From Virgibacillus natechei (GTDB taxonomy: Bacteria; Bacillota; Bacilli; Bacillales; Amphibacillaceae), in assembly GCF_026013645.1 (NCBI RefSeq), contig NZ_CP110224.1:1178001-1242000 (forward strand): a stretch of 64,000 bases of DNA, written 5' to 3'. The translations under genes and the position numbers were made by a program. The notes under the pieces were generated by a model. That model saw nothing but the letters and a program-made list of their open reading frames with translations. It was not told the origin of the DNA and did not search any database. Shown in pieces: positions 37,684 through 55,409 of this stretch (its first letter is position 1; the number at the start of each line of letters is the position of its first letter).

Positions 37684-39429
37684 TTAGGCAAGCTTACTGT
37701 TCTTTGTCTTATTAGCTTCTACAAGTTGTCCATTTTCTTCCCTGAATTTTATAATTCCTTCTGCTGCTCGATATGCGAGAGCTCCCACTGTACCAGTTGG
37801 GTTATAGCCTCCATTATGTGCGAATGCAGAAGCACCTACGACAAATAGGTTGTCCACGTCCCACATTTGGGAATAATTATTTACCGCTGAAGTTTCAGGG
37901 TCACCACCCATGATGGCACCTCCGGTATTATGGGTTGTTTGATAAGGCACAATGTTATAATGGTCTGTCATTTCAGTGGGTTCAACTATATCCGCCCCCA
38001 TTTCATGGAGTATATCTGCACACTTATCCATAAGGAAATCATGTAAGTTTCTATCCTGTTCTGTATAGTCATAAGTTAACCGAAGAAGTGGGTATCCAAA
38101 GTTATCAGTATAATCCGGATCCAAATCTAAATAATTCTCCCGATGAGGCATGGATGCACCCTGGCAACTAACACTTAATGCTCGGTGATAGTATTTTAAC
38201 GATTCATTTTTAAATTCCGCCCCCCAATTGGGTGTGTCTTTAGGAACGATATTGTTATTAATAGGACGCTGTCCAGTTTGGGTAATCGCAGCAACTCCAC
38301 CATGTATAAAGTCTAGATCGGTATGATCAAAATTATCCCCATTATAGTCATCTACAGCAGCACCTAGTGCGCCAGCCCCCATATACGTATTGAATTTTTC
38401 ATTTTCAAAGAACCCTGTGGCACCTGGAAGGATCTGATAACAATAATTTTTACCAATAACGCCAGATCCCGTTGCCCGGTCATAAGGACGACCGATTCCA
38501 GAGTTTAAAAGCAAACGGACATTATTCATCACATAGCTTGTTAATACAACGACGTCTGCTGGTTGAATAAATTCTTCTCCTGTTTGCAAATCTACATATT
38601 TAACACCAGTTGCTCTATTGCCATCGTACATCACTTCGGTTACGTTAGAGTGTGTTCTTAAATCGAAATTTCCAGTTTTTTCAGCAGTGGGAAGGACGGT
38701 AACATTCGGTGTAGACTTGGCGCCATATTCACAACCGAAACGCTCACAAAAACCGCAATATTGACATTTAGCAATGGTTTCACCATCAGGGTTTTCATAG
38801 GCTTCTGATAAATTACCTGAAGGAATATGGCCGGGGTGGAGATCTAAATTATTAGCAGCCTCTTTAAAACGTAACGTAATCGGCGTTTCCTTCATTGGTG
38901 GAGTGGGATACGGATTACTTCTTGGTGCGCTCATTGGATTTTCTTCACCACTAATACCAGTTGTTTCTTCAAACTGATAAAAATAAGGTTCTAACTCATC
39001 GTAGGTTATTCCCCAGTCTTGGATGGTATAATTTTCATCCAATTTATTTTCTCCATATTTTTCATCAGTAAGTGTCTTAATTTCAAGATCATATGGTAAG
39101 AAACGCCAAGTTTGTCCGTTCCAATGTACACCAGATCCACCAACACCTTCCCCAAGTAGGAAGGAACCTAATTGGCGCATCGGAAGTGCGCGCTCATCAC
39201 TATGATTCCTAAATGTTACTGTTTCTTTAGATAAATCCTGCATCAAATCATATCGGATAGCATATCGATATTCATCGTGAACCTGTTGGAAATCCTCTGT
39301 AGATCTACCTTTTCCACGTTCAAGGCCAACGACATTTGCTCCTTCTTTGGCAAGTTCCGCAGCAATGATTCCGCCTGTCCAACCAACTCCAACTGTAACT
39401 ACTTCTACCTTATCTAATTCTGTCGCCAT
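37684..39429 (-). CDS. GMC-family oxidoreductase, large FAD subunit (gluconate 2-dehydrogenase-like)
   Basis: 581 residues. The FAD-binding motif VVTVGVGWTGGIIAAELA (GxGxxG) is at about 10-28. Further along are GVGGSGVHWNGQTWRF (about 95) and a Cys-rich KCQYCGFCERFGCEYGAK near residue 220. The C-terminal catalytic part has QTTHNTGGAIMG and SAFAHNGGYNPTGTVGALAYRAAE. It has no signal peptide, so it would be exported in complex with the Tat-signal subunit encoded just upstream. Substrate is a sugar or sugar acid by family. Electrons would go to a quinone or cytochrome; no cytochrome subunit gene is present here, unlike classical three-subunit enzymes. Confidence 0.92.
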   Translation of the reverse strand: MATELDKVEVVTVGVGWTGGIIAAELAKEGANVVGLERGKGRSTEDFQQVHDEYRYAIRYDLMQDLSKETVTFRNHSDERALPMRQLGSFLLGEGVGGSGVHWNGQTWRFLPYDLEIKTLTDEKYGENKLDENYTIQDWGITYDELEPYFYQFEETTGISGEENPMSAPRSNPYPTPPMKETPITLRFKEAANNLDLHPGHIPSGNLSEAYENPDGETIAKCQYCGFCERFGCEYGAKSTPNVTVLPTAEKTGNFDLRTHSNVTEVMYDGNRATGVKYVDLQTGEEFIQPADVVVLTSYVMNNVRLLLNSGIGRPYDRATGSGVIGKNYCYQILPGATGFFENEKFNTYMGAGALGAAVDDYNGDNFDHTDLDFIHGGVAAITQTGQRPINNNIVPKDTPNWGAEFKNESLKYYHRALSVSCQGASMPHRENYLDLDPDYTDNFGYPLLRLTYDYTEQDRNLHDFLMDKCADILHEMGADIVEPTEMTDHYNIVPYQTTHNTGGAIMGGDPETSAVNNYSQMWDVDNLFVVGASAFAHNGGYNPTGTVGALAYRAAEGIIKFREENGQLVEANKTKNSKLA

Positions 39430-40415: not shown

Positions 40416-40855
40416 TTAAGCTAGCTTACTGTTTTTTTTCTTTTGAGCTTCTACAAGCTGTCCATCTTCTTCCCTGAATCTTATAATTCCTTCAGCTGCT
40501 CTATACGCCAATGCACCGACCGTACCTGTAGGGTTGTAGCCACCATTATGTGGGAAAGCAGAAGCTCCAATTACGAATACATTATCCATGTCCCACATTT
40601 GCAAATAATTATTCAGTACAGAAGTTTCTGGGTCATCTCCGATAATGACACCACCAGTAATATGGTCATTGTGGGCAGGGACGATATCAAAGTGCTCCGT
40701 CAGCTCAGTAGGCTCCACAGTCTCGGCACCCATCTCTTCTAAGATTTCAGCACATCTTGCCGTGATAAATTCATGTAGCTTACGGTCATGTTCGGTAAAA
40801 TCATAAGTAAGTCGGAGCAGTGGGTTCCCGTAGCTGTCTTTATATGTCGGATCGA
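40416..40855 (-). pseudogene. Second GMC oxidoreductase, C-terminal remnant
   Basis: About 147 codons match the C-terminus of the intact neighbour: DPTYKDSYGNPLLRLTYDF, then GASAFPHNGGYNPTGTVGALAY and the same NSKLA ending. The FAD-binding half and more than 400 residues are missing, cut at about 40855. Divergence from the intact gene (for instance HITGGVIIGDDP for HNTGGAIMGGDP) shows an old paralogue, not a recent duplication. Confidence 0.88.
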
Positions 40856-43164: not shown

Positions 43165-43216
43165 TTGACAAATTGTAAAAAGGTGAATTATGATATACAT
43201 ATACAAAATGTCGACA
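43165..43216 (+). promoter_or_regulatory. Promoter plus GntR operator upstream of the ectoine hydrolase gene
   Basis: TTGACA (43165-43170), 18 bases, TATGAT (43189-43194), then 14 bases to the palindrome core TGTCGACA (43209-43216), itself followed by ATCGGCA. The same -10 box, 14-base gap and 15-base TGTCGACAATCGGCA recur at 45841-45898 before the GntR gene. This points to shared repression by that regulator. Confidence 0.75.
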
Positions 43217-43526
43217 ATCGGCAGACCTAAAACGTATTCTTTCCAGACTATGCAATAGACCTAAAATAAATGAAGACAATTTTATGCAGTTCCTCCATAA
43301 ATGGGTGCAAATTCCCATGAGAAACAAGCCACCCCCAAGGCAGTTTGTTCATATAATGAATTAAACTGCCATAATAAGTAAGGATTTGGTTTATATTCCG
43401 TTTATATAGTGAAAACAAACTATAAGAAATGGAAAAATAGCACAAAAAGGAACATTGCAAAATCGTTCAATGAGTGAATACCGCGACACTCTGTTTGAAG
43501 GAATCAATTATGTATGAAGGGAAGGG
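43217..43526 (+). other. 310-base leader before the ectoine hydrolase gene
   Basis: No gene is convincing on either strand. On the plus strand there are several possible stems (for example GGCAGTTT with AAACTGCC at 43340-43372, and GGGTGC/CACCC around 43303-43335). These suggest a structured untranslated leader. I do not recognise a riboswitch class. Confidence 0.4.
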
Positions 43527-44720
43527 ATGGGTGTGTTACAATTTTCGGTTTTGGAATATCAAAAGAGGTTAATGAAAACAAAACAACGGATGGCAGCTGA
43601 TGGAATTGATGTTTTGCTAGTGACAGATCCAGCAAACATGAATTATTTAAGTGGTTATGATGCTTGGTCCTTTTATGTACATCAGCTGCTAATCGTTATG
43701 ATAGATGAGGAACAGCCGTACTGGATTGGTCGAGGCTTAGATGCGAATGCAGCGAGGCATACCAGTTGGTTGGATGAAGATCATATTCTTCCATATGCAG
43801 ATCATTATGTACAATCAACGATTAGACATCCAATGGACTTTGTTTCTGACTTTTTAAAAGAAAGAAAGCGGGATAAACAGGTTATTGCAATGGAGCTTGA
43901 CGCCTATTATTTTACAGCCAAATCTTATCTTAAATTAGCTAATAATTTGCTCGATTCCAAATTTAAGGATGGAACCAATCTGGTTAATTGGATTCGAATT
44001 ATAAAATCAGATCAGGAAATAGCCTATATAAAAAAAGCTGCTCAAATTTCTGAAAAGGCGATGGGAGTTGCGTATGAAGCGCTTAATGAAGGTGTTAGGG
44101 AAAGTGATGTCGTTGCCGAAATTTCCCATGCGCAAATCAGTGGAACGGAGGAATTCGGTGGGGATTATCCATCTATTGTTCCATTAATACCAACCGGGGA
44201 AAAGACATCTGCCTGCCATTTAACGTGGACAGACGACGTATTTAAGGCAGGGGACCCTGTGATTATTGAGTTGTCTGGATGCTATCAGCGTTACCATTCT
44301 CCACTGGCTCGAACAGCAGTAGTTGGTTCCCCGAGTGAAGAAATGAGGCATTTGGGTGATGTTGTTGTGGAAGGGGTTAATAGTGCTTTGGATGTCGTTA
44401 AACCAGGTATAACATGTGAAGAGGTAGAATTGGCATGGCGAAATTCAATTGAAAGAAATGGTATTAAAAAAGAGTCTCGAATTGGATATTCTGTAGGGCT
44501 TAATTATCCGCCTGACTGGGGAGAGCACACCGCAAGTTTACGTCCGGGAGATCGTACCGTATTGGAACCTAATATGACGTTTCATATGATACCAACAATT
44601 GATATAGGGCATGCGGGTATGGAAATTAGTGAGTCGTTCAGGGTGACAGAAACAGGATTTGAAAAACTTAATAACTTTCCACAGGAACTTTACGTTAAAC
44701 CAAATATTCGCTTGGCATAG
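43527..44720 (+). CDS. doeA: Ectoine hydrolase (creatinase/M24-like)
   Basis: 397 residues, the size of DoeA/EutD. An N-terminal creatinase domain (about 10-150: GIDVLLVTDPANMNYLSGYDAWSFYVHQ) precedes an M24 pita-bread fold. DoeA-specific text includes HYVQSTIRHPMDF, FGGDYPSIVPLIPTGE, GYSVGLNYPPDWGEHTASL and RPGDRT. As in creatinase, the paired metal-binding Asp of M24 peptidases are not conserved (IIELSGCYQRYHSPLART), so a metal-free hydrolysis is expected. It opens the ectoine ring to N-acetyl-diaminobutyrate; hydroxyectoine gives the hydroxy analogue. ATG 43527 is close to AAGGGAAGGG; a GTG at 43533 is possible. Confidence 0.88.
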   Translation: MGVLQFSVLEYQKRLMKTKQRMAADGIDVLLVTDPANMNYLSGYDAWSFYVHQLLIVMIDEEQPYWIGRGLDANAARHTSWLDEDHILPYADHYVQSTIRHPMDFVSDFLKERKRDKQVIAMELDAYYFTAKSYLKLANNLLDSKFKDGTNLVNWIRIIKSDQEIAYIKKAAQISEKAMGVAYEALNEGVRESDVVAEISHAQISGTEEFGGDYPSIVPLIPTGEKTSACHLTWTDDVFKAGDPVIIELSGCYQRYHSPLARTAVVGSPSEEMRHLGDVVVEGVNSALDVVKPGITCEEVELAWRNSIERNGIKKESRIGYSVGLNYPPDWGEHTASLRPGDRTVLEPNMTFHMIPTIDIGHAGMEISESFRVTETGFEKLNNFPQELYVKPNIRLA

Positions 44721-44746
44721 GATGGAAAGTGAAAAAGATTGAGAGG

Positions 44747-44782
44747 TAAGCGTAAAGACAGTATTAACTGCCTTTATGCTTA
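44747..44782. terminator. Bidirectional terminator between doeA and the hydroxyacid dehydrogenase
   Basis: Fifteen-bp arms with two G-T pairs (TAAGCGTAAAGACAG against CTGCCTTTATGCTTA). It overlaps the stop of the minus-strand gene. Confidence 0.7.
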
Positions 44783-45756
44783 TCCGGCCAAACATCTGGA
44801 TTGATGAGATTTGGTGGTTTTTCTCCATGTATTCCTTTTTCCAAATTAGTTGCCGCAAGTTCCGACATCTTCAATTCTGTCTCATGAGTGGAAGATCCGA
44901 TATGTGGCAAGGTGACCGTATTTTTCATTTTGAGTAGTGGATTGTCCGTTTCCGTTGGTTCATTCTCAAATACGTCTAATCCTGCTGCAGTAATTTCGCC
45001 ATTTGTAAGAGCGTCAATTAAGTCCTGCTCGACAATTGTTTTTCCTCTGGATCCATTAATGAATATTGCGGATTCCTTCATTAACTGGAATTCCCTTTTA
45101 CCAATAAGTCTCTCTGTTTCTGGAGTTAATGGGGTCATAAGGCAAACAAAATCAGATTGACTAAGTAGCTCATCAAGGTCAGAATACGTTGCGTTATATG
45201 TTTCTTCTACCTCTGGTTTTCTGCTACGGCTATGGTAAACAATATCCATATCGAAACCAAAATGAGCCCGTTGTGCGATTGCTTGACCAATTCGTCCCAT
45301 TCCGATAATCCCCAACACTTTATGGTGAACGTTTATACCAAAGTGCTCTGGTTCGATTGATTGGACCCATTCTCCATTTTTAACAAAGTGATCTAACTCC
45401 GGGATTCGTCTGGCTGTAGCGATAAGAAGTCCGAAGATGGTATCAGCTACTGTATCTGTTAGGATGCCTGGTGTGTTGGTTGCCATAATATTTCGTTTGC
45501 TTAATTGCTCAATATCCAAGTTATTGTGCCCAACAGAGACGTTGCTGACAATTTTAAGGTTGGGTGCTTTTTCCAGTAAATCTTTGTTTACATTTAAGTC
45601 TAAACCGATAATTCCTTCTGCCTGATCTAATTGTTTCAAGAATTCAGGATCTGTAGTAGGATCAATATTTTTAAAGAATTGAACATCATATTTTTTTTGT
45701 AAATCTTTTAGTACAGGCTTCTCTACACGTTCATAAGCGATAATTTTTTTCTTCAA
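44764..45756 (-). CDS. D-2-hydroxyacid dehydrogenase (glyoxylate/hydroxypyruvate reductase type)
   Basis: 330 residues. The NAD(P) motif is LGIIGMGRIGQAIAQRA, followed at the end of the second strand by HSRSRKPEVE, whose Arg residues suggest NADPH preference. The catalytic Arg is in INGSRGKTIVEQ, the Glu in VFENEPTE and the His in LPHIGSSTHE. It reduces 2-keto acids such as glyoxylate, hydroxypyruvate or 2-ketogluconate. It is divergent from the GntR gene and convergent with doeA, so it shares the regulatory gap containing the TGTCGACA operator. A role on a keto acid formed from (hydroxy)ectoine carbon is inference. Confidence 0.9.
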   Translation of the reverse strand: MKKKIIAYERVEKPVLKDLQKKYDVQFFKNIDPTTDPEFLKQLDQAEGIIGLDLNVNKDLLEKAPNLKIVSNVSVGHNNLDIEQLSKRNIMATNTPGILTDTVADTIFGLLIATARRIPELDHFVKNGEWVQSIEPEHFGINVHHKVLGIIGMGRIGQAIAQRAHFGFDMDIVYHSRSRKPEVEETYNATYSDLDELLSQSDFVCLMTPLTPETERLIGKREFQLMKESAIFINGSRGKTIVEQDLIDALTNGEITAAGLDVFENEPTETDNPLLKMKNTVTLPHIGSSTHETELKMSELAATNLEKGIHGEKPPNLINPDVWPDKHKGS

Positions 45757-45840
45757 TTGTAGCCCCCATTTCTAAATCTTGATTACTATCAAAATAGCTA
45801 TAAATGTTTGAGAAGTCAACTTAAAAAGATAATTAATTAA

Positions 45841-45893
45841 TTGACAATTTGAAATTAATTAATTATGATGTAGATACAATGATTGTCGACAAT
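45841..45893 (+). promoter_or_regulatory. Promoter plus GntR operator before the regulator and catabolic operon
   Basis: TTGACA-N17-TATGAT (45841-45869) is followed after 14 bases by the core TGTCGACA, part of the perfect 12-bp palindrome ATTGTCGACAAT (45882-45893). A FadR-type regulator bound here would sit on the start site and first transcribed bases. The match to 43165-43216 is close. Confidence 0.8.
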
Positions 45894-45955
45894 CGGCAAT
45901 AAACTTAAAAAGATAAAAACATAAAATTTAATTATATAAAAGGGGTGTTTAACAT

Positions 45956-46615
45956 ATGGTGGATGAGGATACATTTATATTACAGAAGCCGTTAAGTGAA
46001 CTGATTGCCGAGCAGCTTAGACAGCGTATTTGGGATAGGGAGGTTGAATTTGGAGAGCGATTACTTGAAGTTGAGCTGGCAGAAACATTTGAAGTTAGTC
46101 GCAGTACACTTCGAGAAGCATTGAAGATTCTTGAACAGGAGGGATTGGTGATAAGCAAAGCCCGAAAAGGAACGTATGTAGCACAATTTTCCAATAAGGA
46201 TCTTGAGGAGATCATTGAATTTCGAAAATTAATAGAGGCACATGCCTTTACAGATGCACTCCCTTATCTGAAAGCGGATCAATTTGAAGATCTGAAAGGT
46301 ATTATAACCCAAATGAAATCAGAAGTAACAAACAAAAACTGGAATCAGCTGTTTGATCTTGATATGCAATTTCATAGTTATATCGTTAACCTTAGCGGAA
46401 ATTCGAGAATTATTAAGATCTACGACTCCATTCAAGTACAAATCAGAGCTTATCTCGTGCATCTGGATCAATATTACTCTAGCCCTCAAGCGTTCTATGA
46501 TGAACATAAGGAATTACTCGACGCCTTATTGACTAAAGATGTTCAAATCGTTAAGGAACGAGTCAGGGATCATATTGCATACGTCGGGGAGAATTTACTC
46601 GGTGTAAAACAATAA
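45956..46615 (+). CDS. GntR-family regulator, FadR/FCD subfamily
   Basis: 219 residues. The winged helix (about 12-75: LSELIAEQLRQRIWDRE, ETFEVSRSTLREALKILEQEGL) is followed by the all-helical FCD effector domain (about 85-210). Metal/ligand residues Asp and His in LFDLDMQFH, and His in DEHKELL and VRDHI, are in place. FCD regulators usually repress catabolic genes and release DNA when an organic or amino acid binds. It is the first gene after its own operator and 29 bases before the transaminase, so it is probably autoregulated and controls both (hydroxy)ectoine gene groups. It differs from the MocR-type EnuR regulator usual in proteobacterial ectoine clusters. Confidence 0.92.
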   Translation: MVDEDTFILQKPLSELIAEQLRQRIWDREVEFGERLLEVELAETFEVSRSTLREALKILEQEGLVISKARKGTYVAQFSNKDLEEIIEFRKLIEAHAFTDALPYLKADQFEDLKGIITQMKSEVTNKNWNQLFDLDMQFHSYIVNLSGNSRIIKIYDSIQVQIRAYLVHLDQYYSSPQAFYDEHKELLDALLTKDVQIVKERVRDHIAYVGENLLGVKQ

Positions 46616-46643
46616 ATAACTTTAAAATGGGAGGCCAACTCAA

Positions 46644-47996
46644 ATGAATAAAAAATTTGCTAACGTTCAAACGGAATTACCAGGACCAAAGGCAAAGGAA
46701 TTACTGGATAGAAGGCATGCGATCGTACCAGATGCGGTTGGTTATGGGATTCCAACATTTGTAGATTCGGCAAAAGGGGCTTTACTAAAAGATGTGGACG
46801 GAAATGAGTTTATTGACTTTGCAGGTGCGATTGGAACGATAAATGCTGGTCATAGTCATGAAACGGTTACGGATGCCTTACATGATCAGATTGATCGTTA
46901 TATTCATACGGGATTTAATGTCATGATGTATGATCCTTATATTGAATTGGCAGAAAAGATAGCGAAACTGGCTCCAGGGAGTTTTGATAAGAAAGTGATG
47001 TTCCTAAACAGTGGAGCGGAAGCAGTGGAAAATGCGGTGAAAATCGCCCGCAAGTATACGAAGCGTCAGGCAGTTGTTTCGTTTGCTGGAGGTTTCCATG
47101 GGAGAACATTGATGACGATGTCCTTAACTGGGAAGGTAAAACCATTCAAGTACGAATATGGTCCATTTGCGCCAGAAGTATACCGGGCAGCCTATCCTTA
47201 TTTCTATCGTCGACCGGAAACAATGAGTGAGGAGGAATACTCGCAATTTTTATTAGATGAAATGGAAGACTTTTTTATTAAAGAAGTGGCTCCAGAACAA
47301 GTCGCTGCTGTTATTATGGAACCTGTACAAGGAGAAAGCGGCTTCATTATTCCGGATAAAGCTTTTGTTCAGGGGATTAGTGAATTATGTAAGAAACATG
47401 GAATACTTCTTATAGCTGATGAGATACAAACAGGCTTTGGGCGGACAGGAAAATATTTTGCTATGGAGCATTTTGGAGTGGAACCAGATTTAATTACTGT
47501 TTCCAAATCAATGGCAGCAGGGTTACCAATTAGTGGTGTGATTGGCCGAAAAGAAGTCATGAACGACGCAAATGCAGGTGAACTGGGTGGAACGTACGCA
47601 GGAAGTCCGCTTGGCTGTCGGGCTGGTCTTGCTGTACTTGAAGTAATGGAAAAGGAAAACTTAAATGCACGTGCAGACGTGATAGGTCAACAAGTTATGA
47701 CAACGTTTAAGCATTTGTATGATCGTTTTGATGTGATCGGGGAAGTTAGGGGTCTCGGTGCTATGTGCGCAATGGAATTTGTTAAAGATCGGAAAAGCAA
47801 AACGCCGGATAAACAAGTAACCGATCAAATTTTCAAAGAAGCACAAAGACGTGGTGTCGTTGCACTCAAAGCAGGGGTTCATGATAATGTTCTACGCTTG
47901 CTCATGCCACTCGTGATAACAGATGAGCAACTGAAAGAAGGGTTAGAGATACTAGAAGAATCAATTGAAGCAGTGCTCGCAGTAAGTGCAAAATAA
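46644..47996 (+). CDS. Class III transaminase (GabT/DoeD-like)
   Basis: 450 residues. The Schiff-base Lys288 is in VSKSMAAGLP, the PLP Asp in LIADEIQTGFGRTG, and NSGAEAVENAVKIARKYT and GGFHGRT are cofactor contacts. By sequence it reads as a 4-aminobutyrate:2-oxoglutarate transaminase. In this setting it is a good candidate for the diaminobutyrate 4-transaminase (DoeD role), giving aspartate semialdehyde, or its 3-hydroxy analogue from hydroxyectoine. GGGAGG lies 10 bases upstream. A dehydrogenase for the semialdehyde product follows at once. GABA use (gabT-gabD) is the alternative. Confidence 0.88.
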   Translation: MNKKFANVQTELPGPKAKELLDRRHAIVPDAVGYGIPTFVDSAKGALLKDVDGNEFIDFAGAIGTINAGHSHETVTDALHDQIDRYIHTGFNVMMYDPYIELAEKIAKLAPGSFDKKVMFLNSGAEAVENAVKIARKYTKRQAVVSFAGGFHGRTLMTMSLTGKVKPFKYEYGPFAPEVYRAAYPYFYRRPETMSEEEYSQFLLDEMEDFFIKEVAPEQVAAVIMEPVQGESGFIIPDKAFVQGISELCKKHGILLIADEIQTGFGRTGKYFAMEHFGVEPDLITVSKSMAAGLPISGVIGRKEVMNDANAGELGGTYAGSPLGCRAGLAVLEVMEKENLNARADVIGQQVMTTFKHLYDRFDVIGEVRGLGAMCAMEFVKDRKSKTPDKQVTDQIFKEAQRRGVVALKAGVHDNVLRLLMPLVITDEQLKEGLEILEESIEAVLAVSAK

Positions 47997-48049
47997 TGAA
48001 CAAAAAGCGCAGGTCGCGAAAAATACGTTAGGATATGGAGGGTCAACAA

Positions 48050-49483
48050 ATGACAAAGCACTATTTGATGCATATAAATGGTTTATCAGTAGGTGAAAAT
48101 TTGGAAACATTGGATATTACGAATCCGGCAAATAATGAAATAGTTGGTACGGTGCCAGTTGGCGGGGAAGCAGAAGCCATACAAGCAATAGATGCAGCGG
48201 ATGAATCTCTTGAAGAATGGTCCGGGTTGACTGCATATGATCGGGCGAGTTATTTAAAGAGGTTCCATCAGCTCATGTTAGACAATCAGGAAGACCTTGC
48301 GCGTACGATGACGATTGAAATGGGGAAACCTATTAATGAGTCAAGAGGTGAAGTAAAGTATGCTGCTAGCTTCATAGAATGGTATGCGGAGGAGGGAAAG
48401 CGTGTATACGGAGAAACAATTCCTTCACATGCGACAGCCAAACGGCTTCAAGTATGGAAGAAGCCAATCGGTGTTGTAGCAGCTATTACGCCATGGAATT
48501 TTCCGGCAGCGATGTTAACACGTAAAATGGGTCCTGCGTTAGCTGCAGGTTGCACGATTGTAATTAAACCGTCGAGCGAAAGTCCGTTAACCGCCATTAA
48601 AATGATGCAACTATGTGAAGAAGCGGGATTCCCTAAAGGTGTTATTAATTTGGTTACAGGATCATCCTCAAAAATAGCAAAAGCTGTTATGGAAAGCGAA
48701 AAGGTTCGGAAGTTAACATTTACTGGTTCTACTGAAGTTGGGAAACTTCTAATTAAGCAAAGTGCTGAAAATGTTAAGAATCTATCGTTGGAACTTGGTG
48801 GTCATGCACCGCTGATTGTATTGGATGATGCGAATGTTGATGTTGCTGTGAAAGGTGTGATGGCTTCTAAATTCAGGAATGCTGGGCAGACATGTATTTG
48901 TGCCAATCGAGTTTACGTTCAATCGGGTATCTATGATGAATTCGTAAACAAGTTTGCCGAAGCAGTAAAAGCACTGAAAGTTGGAAATGGTGAGGACGAC
49001 TCGGTTGATGTTGGGCCTTTAATCAATGAATCTGGATTAGAAAAAGTAAATCATCATGTCGAGGATGCTGTAAATAAAGGAGCTACGATTGTTACTGGTG
49101 GAGAAGCACAAACAAATGATGGTGGTGTCTTTTACACACCAACTGTAATTGGAAATGTCGATTCATCAATGGTTATCATGCAAGAAGAAACCTTTGGCCC
49201 TGTAGCACCTGTACAAAAGATAGAATCAGAGAAAGAAGCAATCACTTTAGCAAACAACTCGCCATACGGATTGGCAGCCTATGTGTTTACAGAAAACGTT
49301 GCTAAGGGTACCCGTGTAATTGAGAAGTTAGATTATGGAATTGTCGGATGGAATGATGGTGCACCTTCAGCAGCTCAAGTTCCTTTTGGTGGCATGAAAG
49401 AAAGTGGTATTGGTCGAGAAGGAGGACGTTACGGAATTGAAGCATTTCTAGAGACGCAGTACGTGTCCATAGGAATGGAGTAA
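48050..49483 (+). CDS. Semialdehyde dehydrogenase (GabD/DoeC-like)
   Basis: 477 residues from ATG 48050 (GGAGGG 8 bases upstream); an in-frame ATG 15 bases earlier overlaps that site. Catalytic Cys282 is in NAGQTCICANR, the base Glu in LSLELGGHAPL, and WNFPAAMLTRK and PFGGMKESGIGREGG are also present. These features are those of the succinate-semialdehyde dehydrogenase branch. After the transaminase it would oxidise aspartate semialdehyde to aspartate (DoeC role) or hydroxyaspartate semialdehyde to hydroxyaspartate. Succinate semialdehyde remains the default family substrate. Confidence 0.88.
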   Translation: MTKHYLMHINGLSVGENLETLDITNPANNEIVGTVPVGGEAEAIQAIDAADESLEEWSGLTAYDRASYLKRFHQLMLDNQEDLARTMTIEMGKPINESRGEVKYAASFIEWYAEEGKRVYGETIPSHATAKRLQVWKKPIGVVAAITPWNFPAAMLTRKMGPALAAGCTIVIKPSSESPLTAIKMMQLCEEAGFPKGVINLVTGSSSKIAKAVMESEKVRKLTFTGSTEVGKLLIKQSAENVKNLSLELGGHAPLIVLDDANVDVAVKGVMASKFRNAGQTCICANRVYVQSGIYDEFVNKFAEAVKALKVGNGEDDSVDVGPLINESGLEKVNHHVEDAVNKGATIVTGGEAQTNDGGVFYTPTVIGNVDSSMVIMQEETFGPVAPVQKIESEKEAITLANNSPYGLAAYVFTENVAKGTRVIEKLDYGIVGWNDGAPSAAQVPFGGMKESGIGREGGRYGIEAFLETQYVSIGME

Positions 49484-49566
49484 TCGAAAGGGTGCCTGAT
49501 AGGATTGAATGCGATCTCGTAGTCATAAGTTCAGAATCTGGATGATCTAAGGGGAGTGGTGTTCTT

Positions 49567-50766
49567 TTGGTAAGTCACCATAAAGAAATAACGATAAGAG
49601 CAGAAAAAATGGCTTCACAGTTGGTGCAGTGGCGCCGAACATTGCATAAGAATCCGGAATTAAGTTTTCAAGAAGTGGAAACGTCCCGAATGATCGCCCA
49701 GATTTTGGAGCAAATTCCAGGTATGCACGTGCAGGTGGAAGCAGGGTATCCTACTGCGGTAGTAGGTACCCTTTCATACGGGGAAGGGCCTACATTTGCG
49801 ATACGGGCGGATATCGATGCATTGCCGATTGAGGAAGAAAATTCTCATGATTACCAGTCACGATACGCAGGTGTCATGCATGCTTGTGGGCATGATGCAC
49901 ATACGGCAATCGGTTTGGGAGCAGCACATTTATTGAGTGAATCGTTTGAAAATGGGGGAATTCAGGGGACGGTTAAATTTCTGTTTCAACCTGCTGAGGA
50001 ACGTGCTGATGCGTATGGTTCAACAGGGGCTCCGTATATGATTCAAGCTGGGGTGCTGGATGATGTAGATGGAGTCATTGCACTTCATATGAGCCCAGAG
50101 GATCAATTGGGAGAAGTTCGAGTTCATGATGGTTATAGTATGGCGAATGTGGATGTATTTAAAGCAAAAATTAGCGGGACCGGCGGACATGGTGCATACC
50201 CGCATCAGGGGACAGACCCTATCTGGATGCTTGGTTCCGTGTTGCAGGCAGTATATGGGATTACGTCAAGACGATTATCTCCACTGGAATCTGGTGTAAT
50301 CAGCATTGGATCTATTTATACCGGTGTTGCTAGTAATGTGATTCCATCCGAAGTTGACATTCAAGGAACGATTCGCAGCTATCACCCCGATGTTCGTAAG
50401 GTCATGCATACTGAACTGGAAAAAGCTTTTTCGCTGGTCACGTTATTAGGTGGCGATTATCAATTAGAAATAATGCCTGAAGATCCCGCGCTAAAAAATG
50501 ACCCCGTAATCAACCAATTGATTGAAGGAGCCATTCAGGATCTTTATCCGAGCTTTCATGTATTGGATATTCCGTTTGGGCTCGGAGGAGAGGATTTCGC
50601 CCATATGACGGAAAAAGTACCAGGTGCCATGTTTTTTCTTGGTTGCGCAAAGGATGATGGAGAGGTCAGAAACCTGCACACTCCAAACTTTGACATTGAT
50701 GAGAAAAGCTTGCCAATTGGTTTGTCCATCCTAACCGAAACGGCGAGACGTTTTTTAAACAGATAG
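49567..50766 (+). CDS. M20D-family amidohydrolase (N-acyl amino acid deacylase)
   Basis: 399 residues with a TTG start 10 bases after GGGGAG. The metal site is MHACGHDAHTAIGLG, the catalytic Glu pair in FQPAEER, with a dimerisation domain (about 190-300, ISGTGGHGAYPHQGTDPI) and the final metal His near VRNLHTPNF. Proteins of this group remove acyl groups from amino acids. Ectoine hydrolase yields an N-acetylated diaminobutyrate, and the usual deacetylase DoeB (AspA/AstE-type) is absent from the window. This gene is the natural candidate to replace it. That substitution is inference. Confidence 0.88.
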   Translation: MVSHHKEITIRAEKMASQLVQWRRTLHKNPELSFQEVETSRMIAQILEQIPGMHVQVEAGYPTAVVGTLSYGEGPTFAIRADIDALPIEEENSHDYQSRYAGVMHACGHDAHTAIGLGAAHLLSESFENGGIQGTVKFLFQPAEERADAYGSTGAPYMIQAGVLDDVDGVIALHMSPEDQLGEVRVHDGYSMANVDVFKAKISGTGGHGAYPHQGTDPIWMLGSVLQAVYGITSRRLSPLESGVISIGSIYTGVASNVIPSEVDIQGTIRSYHPDVRKVMHTELEKAFSLVTLLGGDYQLEIMPEDPALKNDPVINQLIEGAIQDLYPSFHVLDIPFGLGGEDFAHMTEKVPGAMFFLGCAKDDGEVRNLHTPNFDIDEKSLPIGLSILTETARRFLNR

Positions 50767-50861
50767 GAAACGACCCTGGCCACGCTTTTGTAGCCACCAT
50801 CTACTATGAAAATGGAATAACAGGAAACTCAATCATATGCATGAGGTAAGGGAGGGGTACA

Positions 50862-51857
50862 GTGACCTCAGATGGCCAAGGAATCAAGACGGTTACCTTA
50901 ACAGACGTTCAGGAAGCCCATAAGCGGATTTCTCCAGTAGTGAAAAAGTCACCCCTGATTTATTCACCCGCATTGAGTGAATACACAGGAGCATCCGTTC
51001 ATTTGAAACTGGAGAATCTGAATGTTAGTGGGTCGTTTAAAATCAGGGGCGCAGCAAATAAAATGTTGAGCTTACCATTAGGTGAACAGAAACTTGGCGT
51101 TACAACTTTTTCGACAGGTAATTTTGGAATGAGTGTCGCCTATCTTGCCAAGCAGCTGGGAATCAAAGCAATTATTTGCATTTCCAATCGTGTGCCGAAA
51201 GCGAAAGTGGATTTGATTCAGGATCTAGGCGCACAGATAGAAATTGTTGGTCAGTCGCAAGATGATGCCGAGGAACGTTGTTACCAGTTGGAGAAAGAAC
51301 ATGGATTGACCGTGGTTCATCCGTTCGATGATCCTTATGTGATTGCTGGTCAAGGAACGATAGGCATGGAGTTGCTTGATGACTTGCCTAAGCTCGATAC
51401 GGTTATTGGAGGCCTTTCCGGTGGCGGATTGCATTCCGGAATGGGAGTTGCTTTAAAGACCAATGCTCCTAAGCTCCAACTTCTCGGCGTATCACCCATT
51501 CATGGGGCAACCATGTATGAAAGTATCAAGCGAGGATTCCCTATATCGGTAGAAGAACAGAATACCTTGGCTGATAGTTTGTTAGGAGGAATTGGGGAAA
51601 ACAATCAATATACGTTTCATATGGTTCAGCAATATGTGGATAAAATTATGCTGTTGGAAGAGATAGCAATAGCCGAAGGAATGGCTTTCATGTTAGAAAA
51701 GCATCGCATGATAATTGAAGGGGCGGCAGCATCTGGAATTGGAGCTATCTTAAATAAAAACGTTCCCTTAGGATCAGAGGTAGCCGTTATTATAAGTGGC
51801 TGCAGTGTAGATAATTCAACCGTAATGGACATAATGAATCAGAATCATACGAACTAG
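50862..51857 (+). CDS. PLP-dependent ammonia-lyase/dehydratase, EutB-like (threonine/hydroxyaspartate type)
   Basis: 331 residues with a GTG start after AGGGAGGGG. Fold type II: Lys60 in SGSFKIRGA binds PLP, STGNFGMSVAYLAK follows, and the tetraglycine-like phosphate loop is GGLSGGGLHSG. Relatives are threonine deaminase, serine racemase, threo-3-hydroxyaspartate ammonia-lyase and EutB of (hydroxy)ectoine clusters. The normal SGGNHAQ/GNH text is GNFGM here, a notable change at the substrate loop. In this cluster it may deaminate a 3-hydroxy-amino acid derived from hydroxyectoine. Confidence 0.87.
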   Translation: MTSDGQGIKTVTLTDVQEAHKRISPVVKKSPLIYSPALSEYTGASVHLKLENLNVSGSFKIRGAANKMLSLPLGEQKLGVTTFSTGNFGMSVAYLAKQLGIKAIICISNRVPKAKVDLIQDLGAQIEIVGQSQDDAEERCYQLEKEHGLTVVHPFDDPYVIAGQGTIGMELLDDLPKLDTVIGGLSGGGLHSGMGVALKTNAPKLQLLGVSPIHGATMYESIKRGFPISVEEQNTLADSLLGGIGENNQYTFHMVQQYVDKIMLLEEIAIAEGMAFMLEKHRMIIEGAAASGIGAILNKNVPLGSEVAVIISGCSVDNSTVMDIMNQNHTN

Positions 51858-51917
51858 TAAGTTGATAATGTTGTTGCAAAAAGGGAGAAATGCTTAAAAA
51901 GGTGAGGAGGCCTTCAT

Positions 51918-52766
51918 ATGAGTAAAATGTTATTTCAAGATCAACTCATCGAAAGAGATAACGTGGTTGATATAGAGGATCGAGGCTATCAATTCGGTGA
52001 TGGTGTCTATGAAGTAATTGGTGTATACGACAATAAAGCCTTTATGATGGATGAACATATGGAGCGATTGCAAAGAAGTGCGAGGGAAATCCAATTAGAA
52101 CTTCCATTTTCCATTGATGATTTTAAAAGTAATTTAGAGGAATTAAGAGCTGCTAATGAGTTGGTGGAAGGAATTATTTACCTGCAAGTTTCCAGAGGTG
52201 CTAGCTCCCGGTGGCATGAATTTCCTGCCTCGGATGTATCTCCCGTTATTGTTGCCTATACAAGAGCGGAAGAAAGACCGACCAAGGTAGAGGATGAAGG
52301 TGGGACCGCTGTACTCACAGAGGATATCCGTTGGTTGCGTTGTGATATTAAAACACTTAACTTACTTCCGAATGTATTGGCCAAACAAAAAGCTGTCGAA
52401 AATGGGGCTGTAGAAGCTATTCTTCACCGCGGAGACATTGTGACTGAAGCATGTGCATCCAATGTGTTTATGGTAAAAGACGGGGAAGTATATACGCATC
52501 CTGCAAATAATTATATTCTTAACGGTATTACCCGAATAAAAATAATTGAATTATGCGACGAGTTGGATATAAAGGTACATGAAGCGGCATTCACTGTTGA
52601 TGAACTGCTCGCGGCAGATGAAGTATTTGTTTCGGCAACAAAATCAGATATTATACCCATTTTAAAAGTAGGTGATCAAACGATTGGTAATGGCTCTCCA
52701 GGCGTAGTCACCTTACGTATTTTAGAAGAATTTCGCTCGCTTATACGAGAACTTACAAAGGCGTGA
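51918..52766 (+). CDS. dat: D-amino acid transaminase
   Basis: 282 residues, the family length. Fold type IV PLP enzyme: Lys145 in RCDIKTLNLLPNVLAK is the Schiff-base lysine at exactly the standard position. IEDRGYQFGDGVYEV at the start and VFMVKDGEVYTHPANNYILNGITR are characteristic. It moves amino groups between D-amino acids and 2-keto acids. GGAGG precedes the ATG. In Bacillus it normally makes D-glutamate for peptidoglycan; here its place between a PLP lyase and an alanine racemase inside a catabolic run suggests use on D-amino acids formed there. Confidence 0.93.
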   Translation: MSKMLFQDQLIERDNVVDIEDRGYQFGDGVYEVIGVYDNKAFMMDEHMERLQRSAREIQLELPFSIDDFKSNLEELRAANELVEGIIYLQVSRGASSRWHEFPASDVSPVIVAYTRAEERPTKVEDEGGTAVLTEDIRWLRCDIKTLNLLPNVLAKQKAVENGAVEAILHRGDIVTEACASNVFMVKDGEVYTHPANNYILNGITRIKIIELCDELDIKVHEAAFTVDELLAADEVFVSATKSDIIPILKVGDQTIGNGSPGVVTLRILEEFRSLIRELTKA

Positions 52767-52826
52767 TAGATCTTACTATTTGATGAACGAAAAACGGTTA
52801 GGCAGACGTATTGGAGGGATGTTATT

Positions 52827-53960
52827 TTGCTTCAAACACCAACATTATCAGCTTATCACCCGACCACCGCAGAAATAGATCTTGCTGCTTTCAATGAAAA
52901 TATCACCAAGCTTAAAAAGCTCGTAAAAAAAAGCATGTTGTTAGCCGTAATTAAAACAAATGCTTATGGACATGGTACGGTTCGAATCGGAGAAGAAGCA
53001 GTCAAGGCCGGAGCGGAGAGCCTTGGTGTTACAACAGTAGAGGAGGGCGCATTACTCCGTGAAAATGGTATCGATGTTCCTATTCATATTTTAAGTTCGA
53101 TTACGCCCGAACAAGCATCAGATGTTGTTCGATATGAACTAACTGCATCCGTGTTTTCCATTCGGTTAGCAAAAGCGATCAGTGAAGTGGCAGTGAAACA
53201 GCGCAAAACTATTCCAGTCCATTTAAAGTTGGATACAGGTTTACATCGATTTGGCCTCGAACCACATGAAGTGCTATCATTTTGTGAAGTTTGTTATGAA
53301 CTACCTGGACTTTGGTGGGAAGGTGTATATACGCATTTTTCCAGTGTAGATGAAGGCGACTGGGAAACAACTGAGCGGCAATTTAACTTGTTTATTGATA
53401 CGGTAACAATGCTGGATGAACAAGGCTTTAATTTTGCAATTCGACATGTCGGTGGATCAACGATTGCCATCGAAAGACCAGATATGCATCTAGATATGGT
53501 GAGACCTGGTGTTGCATTATTCGGCTATCAACCAGCAGCACGTCAACGGGATATCATTTCTTTAAAGCCTGTCATGGCCTTGAAATCAAACTTGATTTAT
53601 GTGCGGGAACTACCCCCGAATACACCAGTCGGATATGGAGGCAGTTATGTTACTCGAACTACGAAAAAAATAGCTGTAGTGCCGATTGGACATGGTGATG
53701 GCTATAGTAGAGCATTATCAAATAAAGGGAAAATGCTTATTGGAGGAAAAAGAGTCAAGATTATTGGTACAATATCATTGGATCAAACATTGGTTGATGT
53801 GACGGATGTACCTGACGTTACGGAAGGGGAGGAAGTGATCTTGCTTGGTGAACAAGGAGGAGACGAAATAACAGCAGAGGATGTTGCGGATTGGATGGGT
53901 AGTATCGTAGATGAAGTAGTTTCCGGCTTTACGGAACGAATAAGAAGGGTGTACGTATAA
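52827..53960 (+). CDS. alr: Alanine racemase
   Basis: 377 residues with a TTG start 8 bases after GGAGGG. The PLP Lys43 is in AVIKTNAYGHG; the catalytic Tyr is in VGYGGSYVTR. HLKLDTGLHRFGL and a beta-domain with VPIGHGDGYSR are diagnostic. It interconverts L- and D-alanine. Most Bacillaceae keep a housekeeping alr elsewhere, and this copy is in a run of catabolic genes, so it may supply D-alanine as amino donor/acceptor for the preceding transaminase or racemise another small amino acid. A dispersed repeat follows. Confidence 0.93.
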   Translation: MLQTPTLSAYHPTTAEIDLAAFNENITKLKKLVKKSMLLAVIKTNAYGHGTVRIGEEAVKAGAESLGVTTVEEGALLRENGIDVPIHILSSITPEQASDVVRYELTASVFSIRLAKAISEVAVKQRKTIPVHLKLDTGLHRFGLEPHEVLSFCEVCYELPGLWWEGVYTHFSSVDEGDWETTERQFNLFIDTVTMLDEQGFNFAIRHVGGSTIAIERPDMHLDMVRPGVALFGYQPAARQRDIISLKPVMALKSNLIYVRELPPNTPVGYGGSYVTRTTKKIAVVPIGHGDGYSRALSNKGKMLIGGKRVKIIGTISLDQTLVDVTDVPDVTEGEEVILLGEQGGDEITAEDVADWMGSIVDEVVSGFTERIRRVYV

Positions 53961-53984
53961 AATTTCGTTCATCCTGAAAGAGGA

Positions 53985-54303
53985 TGTTCAAAAAGTCTGG
54001 TAAAAATGACACATCGAATTTCTTCGTTGGCTTGCTTTTCCTGCGTGCTAGAACGTTAGCTCACGTATTAATTGCTAGGGGAACTTCTACTAAAACCGCC
54101 CACGTCTTGTGGGCAACGTCGAAGTCACCACATCCTGTGGAAGTCCGCTACTCAAAGCTACGCCGCCTCGAACTTTCGACGCACAGGACGTGCTAGTGTC
54201 GGTGTTGCAGGCAATGGTTTTCGGTGGGGCGAGCATTTACGCGCAGTCCCAGGACGCCTGCGACCTTAGTCGACGCGATCCTTTTTATCCTCCTTTTTGA
54301 ACA
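53985..54303 (+). repeat. 319-bp dispersed element with 11-bp terminal inverted repeats
   Basis: Ends TGTTCAAAAAG and CTTTTTGAACA are perfect inverted repeats. The inside is G+C-richer than its surroundings and contains CTAAAACCGCCCACG, TGTGGGCAACG and TCGTTGGCTTGCTTTTC, pieces found again at 16806-16930, 28810-28867 and 41548-41570. Frames inside it are not protein-like. It resembles a MITE-type element and separates the racemase from the next gene. Confidence 0.75.
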
Positions 54304-54332
54304 CACACTAAAAGCAAAAGGAGAGGTCAACG

Positions 54333-55409
54333 GTGAAAAATTTTAATATAGCGCTTATACCTGGGGACGGAATTGGTTCGGAGGTTGTTTCAGAAGGTGT
54401 GAAAATTTTAAAGGAAATTGAAGAAATGGATGCAGCTATTTCCTTTTCTTTTGCTGAATTTCCGTGGGGTTGTGAGTATTATTTGGAACATGGAAAAATG
54501 ATGGCTGATGACGGAATCGAGCAGTTACAGCCGTTTGATGCTATTTATTTAGGTGCTGTTGGTTATCCAGGAGTGCCTGATCACATTTCCTTAAGAGAAC
54601 TTCTTTTACAGATTCGAAAAGGATTTGATCAATATGTTAATTTACGTCCTATTACACTTTTGAATCCATCTTTGACACCATTGAAGTCCAAAACAGAGAA
54701 AGATGTTGACTTCCTTGTCATCCGTGAAAACAGTGAAGGGGAATATTCAGGGGCTGGGGACTGGTTATACAAAGGAAAACCAGAGGAAGTAGTCTTACAA
54801 ACGGGTGTATTTTCCCGAAAAGGAACGGAACGAATTATTCGTTATGCTTATGAGGAAGCACGTAAATCGAATCGGACGTTAACGAGTGTTAGTAAGGCCA
54901 ATGCCTTGAATTATTCCATGGTTTTTTGGGATGAAGTATTTGAAGAGGTCGGGAAAGAATATCCAGATGTAGAGACGTATTCCTATCTTGTTGATGCTGC
55001 AAGCCTGTACTTCGTTGCACAGCCTGAGCGGTTCGAAGTAGTTGTGACCTCTAATCTTTTTGGTGACATTTTAACAGACATCGGTGCTGCAATTACTGGT
55101 GGATTGGGTCTTGCAACAGGAGCAAATGTTAATCCAGAAAGAAACTATCCATCCATGTTCGAGCCTGTACATGGATCTGCTCCGGATATAGCTGGAAAAG
55201 GAATTGCAAATCCAATTGCTGCGATTTGGTCGGTCAGTCAAATGATGGACTTTTTTGGTGAAGAAAAGTGGGGCGAAGCAATTCTTTCTACGATTAAAAC
55301 AATACTGAAAGAAACGGAACAACTTACTCCAGACTTAGGAGGACAGGGATCCACAAAATCGGTAGGGGATCGATTTGTTGAGCTCCTTAAGGATAATCGT
55401 ATTACATAA
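54333..55409 (+). CDS. Tartrate dehydrogenase / D-malate dehydrogenase (decarboxylating)
   Basis: 358 residues with a GTG start after AGGAGAGG. It belongs to the isocitrate/isopropylmalate dehydrogenase family: IALIPGDGIGSEV, the catalytic Tyr in ENSEGEYSG, Lys in SVSKANALNYS, metal Asp in NLFGDILTDIGAA, and the NAD loop GSAPDIAGKGIANPIA. FAEFPWGCEYY and GAVGYPGVPDHISL place it in the tartrate/D-malate (TtuC/DmlA/YcsA) branch. It oxidises and decarboxylates D-malate, or acts on tartrate via oxaloglycolate. It is the last gene of the (hydroxy)ectoine-linked run, though the repeat between may separate it. Confidence 0.9.
   Translation: MKNFNIALIPGDGIGSEVVSEGVKILKEIEEMDAAISFSFAEFPWGCEYYLEHGKMMADDGIEQLQPFDAIYLGAVGYPGVPDHISLRELLLQIRKGFDQYVNLRPITLLNPSLTPLKSKTEKDVDFLVIRENSEGEYSGAGDWLYKGKPEEVVLQTGVFSRKGTERIIRYAYEEARKSNRTLTSVSKANALNYSMVFWDEVFEEVGKEYPDVETYSYLVDAASLYFVAQPERFEVVVTSNLFGDILTDIGAAITGGLGLATGANVNPERNYPSMFEPVHGSAPDIAGKGIANPIAAIWSVSQMMDFFGEEKWGEAILSTIKTILKETEQLTPDLGGQGSTKSVGDRFVELLKDNRIT

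Follow-up and report, generated by a model that had tools for sequence, protein, structure and literature searches.

How does a gene cluster that encodes an ectoine hydrolase and a EutB-type lyase, and that lacks EutC, provide for the breakdown of hydroxyectoine? The question is raised by positions 43165 to 55409 of a 64,000-nucleotide stretch of Virgibacillus natechei DNA (contig NZ_CP110224.1, positions 1,178,001–1,242,000; hereafter the window), which comes from a genome of 3.87 Mb in a single contig (G000). Here genes for a predicted DoeA/EutD-type ectoine hydrolase and a pyridoxal phosphate (PLP)-dependent EutB-type lyase lie together with a GntR/FCD regulator gene and with genes for a second D-amino-acid transaminase (DAAT) and a second alanine-racemase-type enzyme (Alr). 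In excerpts of one published account, EutD opens hydroxyectoine and EutE yields hydroxylated 2,4-diaminobutyrate (hydroxy-DABA), and the activities of EutA, EutB and EutC are stated to be uncertain (PMC8739950). On balance we favour the reading that this is a GntR/FCD-controlled ectoine/hydroxyectoine regulon in which EutB, DAAT and Alr would serve the hydroxyectoine branch. The first part of this reading, that the cluster is an ectoine/hydroxyectoine catabolic regulon, is very probable; the second, that EutB, DAAT and Alr form the hydroxyectoine branch in place of EutB and EutC, is moderately so.

EutC and the DAAT–Alr pair in EutB-positive genomes

The comparison set comprised 146 genomes of the family. 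Matches to the window DoeA at E ≤ 1e-60 are present in 76 of them (G000 counted), and 36 carry DoeA of the window's own type (68–100% identity to the window protein), termed clade A, which received support of 93/95 in the DoeA tree. Cluster-type Alr (at least 56% identity) is found in 35 of the 146 genomes, all within these 36, and EutB orthologues (at least 51% identity) in 44, every one among the 76 DoeA-positive genomes. Searches for EutC, DAAT and EutA took in 45 genomes from this set of 146, with 27 of the 36 clade-A genomes among them. In the 35 EutB-positive genomes tested, EutC and the DAAT–Alr pair are mutually exclusive, an observation that is new. Specifically, EutC-level matches (365–405 bits) occur in 11 genomes. 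These are precisely the EutB genomes that lack the cluster DAAT and Alr; no such match is found in the 24 EutB genomes that have them, where the best score is 184 bits. Likewise, none of the 26 clade-A genomes with DAAT and Alr has a EutC-level match, and none of these has a EutA match.

EutA-like matches of 144–154 bits (cut-off 318) come from three genomes, all of the same genus, and G030 gave a weak match of 105 bits. The sister lineage of clade-A DoeA consists of G026, G083 and G099 (joint clade 100/99); G083 and G099 carry EutB and EutC, G026 has neither at that level, and all three have a EutA-like gene that scores under the cut-off. A replacement of EutA by Alr was also considered and rejected, since 9 of the 11 genomes with EutC likewise have no EutA, so that in most of them there is nothing for Alr to replace.

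The three enzymes of the proposed branch differ from their relatives at active-site positions. All 35 genomes with cluster Alr carry a further Alr, and all 26 tested carry a further DAAT. In alanine racemase, Tyr354 restricts the enzyme to small substrates, and lysine or broad-specificity racemases carry Thr or Ala there (PMC4517790 and PMC3485190, in part). At this gate (Geobacillus numbering, position read from alignment to 1bd0), Asp is present in 25 of 25 cluster copies and Tyr in 11 of 11 ordinary copies. The best Protein Data Bank (PDB) match of the cluster Alr is the Thermoanaerobacter racemase 4y2w, for which Gln is described at the gate and Asp at that position lowered alanine racemisation (PMC4517790, in part). 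In DAAT, Ala240 and Lys242 are found in all 27 cluster copies, with Ser and Thr in the 11 ordinary ones (one of which is a short, 202-residue copy), and Gly35 in all 27, with Arg in 10 of the 11 ordinary copies and a gap in the other. The GNHG motif of EutB reads GNFG (F88) in 24 of 24 clade-A copies and retains His in all 16 comparison sequences (11 EutC-type, four plasmid-borne and one of housekeeping threonine-dehydratase type); P184G (24/24) and N315S (23/24) are found in none of those 16. The eutB of locus L056, though open, was not called as an open reading frame (ORF) and is absent from these counts. We take the GNHG histidine, from our own alignment, to be equivalent to His87 of serine racemase. 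In serine racemase this residue is said to act close to the carboxylate of the substrate (PMC6411801, in part).

Both the exclusion and the residue changes are read directly from the genomes, as are the genes, their linkage and the operator that they share. Together, the exclusion of EutC and the fixed active-site changes indicate that in hydroxyectoine breakdown the EutC step is probably taken over by the DAAT–Alr pair, with a changed chemistry.

Gene content, linkage and control of the cluster

The features of the cluster are as follows.

43165–43194, plus strand: promoter-like site of doeA, TTGACA-N18-TATGAT, 11 of 12 consensus bases
43209–43223, plus strand: operator TGTCGACAATCGGCA of doeA, 14 bp downstream of the doeA −10 box
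43527–44720, plus strand: predicted DoeA/EutD-type ectoine hydrolase (TIGR02993, 467 bits; 44.7% identity to PDB 6twk)
44764–45756, minus strand: GhrB-like D-2-hydroxyacid dehydrogenase (HADH; GhrB model 395.7 bits, below the cut-off of 492)
45841–45869, plus strand: promoter-like site of the gntR operon, TTGACA-N17-TATGAT, 11 of 12 consensus bases
45884–45898, plus strand: operator TGTCGACAATCGGCA of gntR, 14 bp downstream of the gntR −10 box
45956–46615, plus strand: GntR/FCD regulator, presumed repressor at both operators (GntR and FCD domains, 219 amino acids)
46644–47996, plus strand: GabT-like aminotransferase, presumed 2,4-diaminobutyrate (DABA) transaminase (763.8 bits, cut-off 676)
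48035–49483, plus strand: dehydrogenase GabD, like succinate-semialdehyde dehydrogenase (SSADH), presumed to oxidise aspartate semialdehyde (TIGR01780, 658 bits, cut-off 646.35)
49567–50766, plus strand: M20 amidohydrolase, presumed N-acetyl(hydroxy)DABA deacetylase replacing EutE (generic model TIGR01891)
50862–51857, plus strand: EutB-type PLP lyase with altered conserved motifs F88, G184 and S315 (NF005680, 392 bits)
51918–52766, plus strand: second DAAT, pocket changes G35, A240 and K242 (TIGR01121, 373.2 bits, cut-off 277.45)
52827–53960, plus strand: second Alr-type enzyme, Tyr354 gate changed to Asp362 (TIGR00492, 348.4 bits, cut-off 168)
54333–55409, plus strand: tartrate/D-malate dehydrogenase (TTC), loosely attached to the cluster (TIGR02089, 488.1 bits, cut-off 470.4)

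The genes from gntR to alr (gntR-gabT-gabD-M20-eutB-DAAT-alr) form an operon headed by the regulator gene, and the HADH gene is convergent with doeA and divergent from gntR. An original prediction, made from the window sequence alone, had placed an ectoine/hydroxyectoine catabolic cluster with a D-amino-acid branch here. Every gene that it named is an intact ORF at that place and its inventory stands, to which the minus-strand orientation of HADH and the regulator (45956–46615), both unmentioned there, have to be added; the start that it gave, 43165, coincides with the −35 box upstream of doeA. The prediction was likewise silent on the operator, on the mutual exclusion of EutC and DAAT/Alr and on the distinctness of the M20 protein from DoeB/EutE. 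The 372-bp gap between alr and TTC contains a Bacillaceae-1 RNA (54074–54141, plus strand, 56.8 bits, cut-off 35) and, in inverted orientation, a weak second copy (54180–54287, minus strand, 29.2 bits) that falls under the cut-off. Elsewhere in the window, a 105-amino-acid ORF (40416–40733, minus strand) resembles by eye the C-terminal end of the GMC-type oxidoreductase at 37684–39429 (minus strand), in the manner of a partial duplicate.

Curated NCBIfam cut-offs are passed by GabT, SSADH, DAAT, Alr and TTC. For DoeA, TIGR02993 is the best-scoring family (466.6 bits in the genome search), with the cut-off of 613 missed; the protein shares 173 of 387 residues with the solved ectoine hydrolase 6twk, and its full-length homology scores 374.6 bits to 6twk versus 113.3 to the best prolidase. 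Similarly, NF005680 (cut-off 413) and TIGR02991 (345.5 bits, cut-off 413.35) are the two top-scoring families of the EutB-like protein despite missed cut-offs. The M20 protein, which has 22 His, Asp, Glu or Cys positions invariant among 34 copies, is only distantly DoeB2-like (NF038260, 227.2 bits, cut-off of 550 missed), and the EutE model TIGR02994 (cut-off 402.7) has no match in G000 and a best score of 115.4 bits in 26 genomes. These searches rule out the M20 protein as DoeB or EutE. Relatives of it also occur near DoeA in EutC-type and PucR-type clusters, that is, in three cluster types; because it recurs in this way and EutE is absent, the M20 protein is the likely deacetylase.

Conservation of the linkage was assessed in regions fetched around DoeA (40, then 19 more), which gave a clade-A set of 30 loci from 27 genomes, several of them cut by contig ends. 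The order in clade A is DoeA > HADH < GntR > GabT > GabD > (RidA) > M20 > EutB > DAAT > Alr > (NhaC) > TTC. All nine genes other than RidA, NhaC and TTC are present in 16 of the 30 loci, and the remainder have lost some genes or are cut by contig ends and retain parts of the set. Of 27 clade-A loci with DoeA, 26 also have HADH, and RidA occurs in 15 of 30 clade-A loci versus none of 25 others. One genome, G001, has a clade-A DoeA by itself, without the rest of the cluster. Of 26 clade-A genomes, 7 have no TTC orthologue (at least 72% identity), and such orthologues are present in G046, G083 and G099, all without the DAAT/Alr cluster, which rules out TTC as a gene exclusive to the cluster. A complementary relation between EutB loss and TTC presence (2 of 26 versus 7 of 26) was set aside because the counts are too small.

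Among named genomes, 28 of 80 loci (kept from 172) carry the diagnostic Alr (at least 56% identity), all of them in Virgibacillus, Lentibacillus, Oceanobacillus or Compostibacillus. DAAT adjoins it in 27 of the 28, and the other locus is cut by a contig end; the other 52 Alr loci (at most 42% identity) have neither DoeA nor DAAT nearby, on contigs some of which are short. The set recurs in Virgibacillus, Lentibacillus and Oceanobacillus, the genera in which the original prediction proposed a search, and also in Compostibacillus, and the recurrent linkage with clade-A DoeA supports the view that the D-amino-acid genes belong to the ectoine set. In seven loci (L042–L046, L048 and L050) a second class-III aminotransferase and an APC-type permease are encoded upstream of DoeA, and relatives of this aminotransferase (52–55%) occur in some EutC-type clusters. 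In six genomes (L091, L094–L098) EutB, EutC and DoeA form a compact triplet with no other recognised pathway genes within the fetched 18 kb.

The nature of the substrate is suggested by sister clusters and by the window genome itself. A complete EhuABCD importer lies between DoeA and HADH in L042, L051 and L103, with all four proteins above the cut-offs in L051, the one locus tested, and EhuB alone is present in L041 and L046. The ectoine hydroxylase EctD is encoded in G000 (G000:C1:1505244-1506068; 352.5 bits, cut-off 336.5), so that this organism probably both synthesises hydroxyectoine and breaks it down. The assignment to ectoine and hydroxyectoine catabolism is upheld by the DoeA and EutB types, by the importer in sister clusters and by an operator common to both units.

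This operator emerged from k-mer counts upstream of doeA and of gntR (23 loci), which gave the same palindrome, TGTCGA-N3-TCGACA. The window form, TGTCGACAATCGRCA, has two copies in the 3.87-Mb genome, at 43209 and 45884, also when one mismatch is allowed. In each case the operator starts 14 bp past the −10 box of a promoter-like site, and these two promoter-like sites are the best in the region. They are called by consensus match only, in a scan that overall found no more sites than in shuffled sequences. Promoter-like sites resembling that of doeA lie upstream of doeA in most clade-A loci, and in relatives the operator is mostly 12–17 bp behind a −10-like box, at doeA and gntR alike. Exactly two exact operators, at both cluster promoters, occur in 10 of the 15 clade-A genomes searched (G000 included); G121 and G145 have one and G088 none, nor is there any in G054 and G143, whose clade-A loci lack gntR, or in 11 other genomes searched, all without the cluster (G001 included). 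With one mismatch allowed, several genomes have a few scattered sites, as does a reversed control pattern. At this tolerance the operator precedes doeA in 21 of 27 loci, none of them among the three without gntR (L040, L049 and L059), and it precedes gntR in 18 of 23, with four more exact on the other strand and scored as mismatched (L042, L045, L048 and L103). The gntR gene of L036, present and cut by a contig end, was entered as absent in the upstream count.

The doeA gene and the gntR operon thus share one promoter–operator design and very probably form one regulon. The placement of the operators has a repressor-like geometry, from which binding by GntR and a repressor role are inferred. 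FCD regulators are associated with operators of the type TNGTN(3-4)ACNA; such sites were found in at most 2 of 23 gntR and 5 of 23 doeA upstream regions, and this type was rejected. A 22-bp extended palindrome is not present in the window. Control of the EnuR type was likewise dismissed, the window regulator being a 219-amino-acid GntR/FCD protein without an aminotransferase domain. The doeA leader (43224–43526) spans about 300 bases from operator to start, compared with 131–291 in most relatives; an Rfam scan gave no riboswitch or other match in this leader and no riboswitch in the region.

Possible routes for hydroxyectoine

The substrates, activities and direction of flow given here are those that family membership and gene context suggest. 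In the ectoine trunk, DoeA would open the ring, the M20 enzyme would remove acetate, GabT would transfer the γ-amino group of DABA and GabD would oxidise aspartate semialdehyde to aspartate. Hydroxyectoine would be handled jointly by EutB, DAAT and Alr where other bacteria use EutB and EutC, sometimes with EutA. The Alr-type enzyme, its gate opened and acidic, may together with DAAT link the hydroxylated diamino acid reversibly to its D-epimer and to the 2-oxo acid, which would make the presumed imine reduction by EutC unnecessary; a RidA-type imine hydrolase would assist where present. As a tentative form of this proposal, Alr with Tyr354 changed to Asp may epimerise hydroxy-DABA, DAAT act on the D-form and the rebuilt EutB, without its GNH histidine, handle the resulting isomer. 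If true, such a D-epimer route would be a new pathway rather than a swapped part, under new GntR/operator control.

Other uses of these enzymes have to be weighed. A strict replacement of EutC, in which EutB would dehydrate hydroxy-DABA to an imine, RidA or water release 4-amino-2-oxobutanoate, DAAT form D-DABA and Alr return L-DABA to the ectoine trunk, agrees with the mutual exclusion, with the restriction of RidA to DAAT/Alr-type loci and with the Asp at the Alr gate, which suits the ammonium side chain of DABA; we regard it as rather unlikely, as DAAT and Alr are retained without EutB in two or three lineages, the changed EutB motifs are unexpected if the same imine is made as in EutC clusters, and Lys242 of DAAT would repel DABA. 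The original prediction had favoured hydroxyaspartate, and that route is possible, if less probable still. Here GabT and GabD would yield 3-hydroxyaspartate, EutB would convert the L-form to oxaloacetate and ammonia, Alr and DAAT would take the D-form to oxaloglycolate, and TTC and HADH would lead on to D-glycerate. A TTC above the tartrate dehydrogenase cut-off fits this scheme, and Lys242 in the DAAT pocket suits an acidic side chain. DAAT, Alr and TTC are also kept together where EutB is lost, as is HADH in both loci that reach that far, and none of 26 clade-A genomes tested lacks both EutB and TTC, numbers too small to mean much. Against it, the Asp at the Alr side-chain gate in every copy is unfavourable for a dicarboxylate, the distribution of TTC follows that of the cluster at neither end, and with the hydroxyaspartate lyase models EutB scores well under their cut-offs (234 of 452 bits; BhcB, 224 of 550).

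It is also conceivable that the cluster is ordinary cargo, with GabT and GabD degrading γ-aminobutyrate (GABA), the extra Alr and DAAT supplying D-alanine and D-glutamate for wall or spores, and the linkage to DoeA incidental. GabT, SSADH, Alr and DAAT do pass the cut-offs of ordinary families, and the cluster GabT is the sole match in G000 at E ≤ 1e-100. However, separate ordinary Alr and DAAT enzymes exist in each of the 11 genomes compared, the operator in G000 is confined to the two cluster promoters, and the gate and pocket residues have changed, in Alr to the residue that lowered alanine racemisation in the Thermoanaerobacter enzyme (PMC4517790, in part). We therefore consider this explanation very improbable.

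The hydroxyectoine regulon that we favour is itself opposed by several observations. Because the DAAT/Alr-type EutB forms a single clade (support 100/99) and the DoeA tree agrees, the exclusion of EutC goes back to a single evolutionary switch, and the genomes counted do not represent separate events. In G099, one of the EutC genomes, a DAAT (57% identity) is encoded on a different contig, and the cluster Alr is lacking. The DAAT–Alr pair cannot serve EutB alone, because two or three lineages retain it in the absence of EutB: Oceanobacillus caeni (L149, G143) and strain MSJ-26 (L151, G041, with the locus at a contig end), both without EutB genome-wide, and Oceanobacillus halophilus (L142, fetched locus only). 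The pocket changes diverge, as the Asp of Alr favours a cationic substrate and Lys242 of DAAT an acidic one. DoeA, EutB and M20 score below the equivalog cut-offs of their proposed functions, and GabT and GabD pass those of the GABA pathway (GabT with TIGR00700, 593.3 bits, cut-off 506.65). The window cluster has neither a transporter nor RidA, and EctD is present in only about half (10 of 19) of the clade-A genomes searched. Locus L056 has gntR and no operator upstream of doeA. Finally, in a relative of the same genus (G029, L034) alr (near 13754) is split in two frames and gabT (near 7144) is short, through decay or sequencing error.

Relation to known ectoine clusters and racemases

In excerpts of PMC13188858, ectoine catabolism is said not to have been described previously in Gram-positive bacteria, and a PucR-linked Bacillota cluster is proposed. 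Ectoine use in Bacillota is as such not new, because doeA was reported in all 14 Aquibacillus-group genomes studied and a Sinobaca strain making and consuming ectoine was cited (PMC10203224, in part). No title or abstract describing the present cluster was found in literature searches, whose coverage excluded most subscription papers.

Two cluster types invite comparison. The proteobacterial eut/doe cluster of Ruegeria, Sinorhizobium and Halomonas shares DoeA/EutD, a EutB-type lyase, an aminotransferase and an SSADH-like dehydrogenase, and in some members the EhuABCD importer (PMC5924519 and PMC8739950, in part). In contrast, the window cluster is without EutA, EutC, EutE/DoeB and EnuR; it has M20 for EutE, GntR/FCD for EnuR and DAAT with Alr for EutC, and its EutB lacks the GNHG histidine. 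The putative PucR-type cluster is alike in its DoeA-type hydrolase, M20 protein (abgB there), aldehyde dehydrogenase and, in some cases, EutB, and has PucR, EutC, cystathionine-synthase-like and homoserine-dehydrogenase-like genes (PMC13188858, in part). PucR, EutC and the homoserine-dehydrogenase-like gene are absent from all 30 clade-A loci, whereas GntR, GabT, DAAT, Alr, TTC and HADH are features of the window cluster; in the main text of PMC13188858 the terms racemase, GntR, Oceanobacillus and Lentibacillus each have no occurrence. A Priestia megaterium plasmid, pBMV_1 (L237, 6978–18453), carries an example of the PucR type, arranged PucR-EutB-PdxS-DoeA(M24)-cyclodeaminase-type, with the PLP synthase gene pdxS inside.

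In the β-hydroxyaspartate cycle the lyase BhcB is paired with BhcD, an OCD-type reductase. This couple formally resembles EutB and EutC, a same-fold lyase with an OCD-type reductase, and differs from the window in the low BhcB score of the window EutB and in the lack of a EutC-level OCD-type partner. Lysine and broad-specificity racemases (PMC3485190, in part) and the Thermoanaerobacter enzyme 4y2w (PMC4517790, in part) are like the window Alr in that the gate is replaced, by Thr, Ala or Gln there and by Asp here, and the window protein differs from them in sequence.

A lineage without EutC and with two D-amino-acid enzymes in its place represents a natural exchange experiment. The exchange limits what EutC can be doing and gives three enzymes with named residues, and the pair opens a way into an unsolved step of the hydroxyectoine pathway. 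A regulator whose candidate operator is defined is a further gain, as is, besides the PucR-linked cluster of PMC13188858, a second type of cluster in Bacillota.

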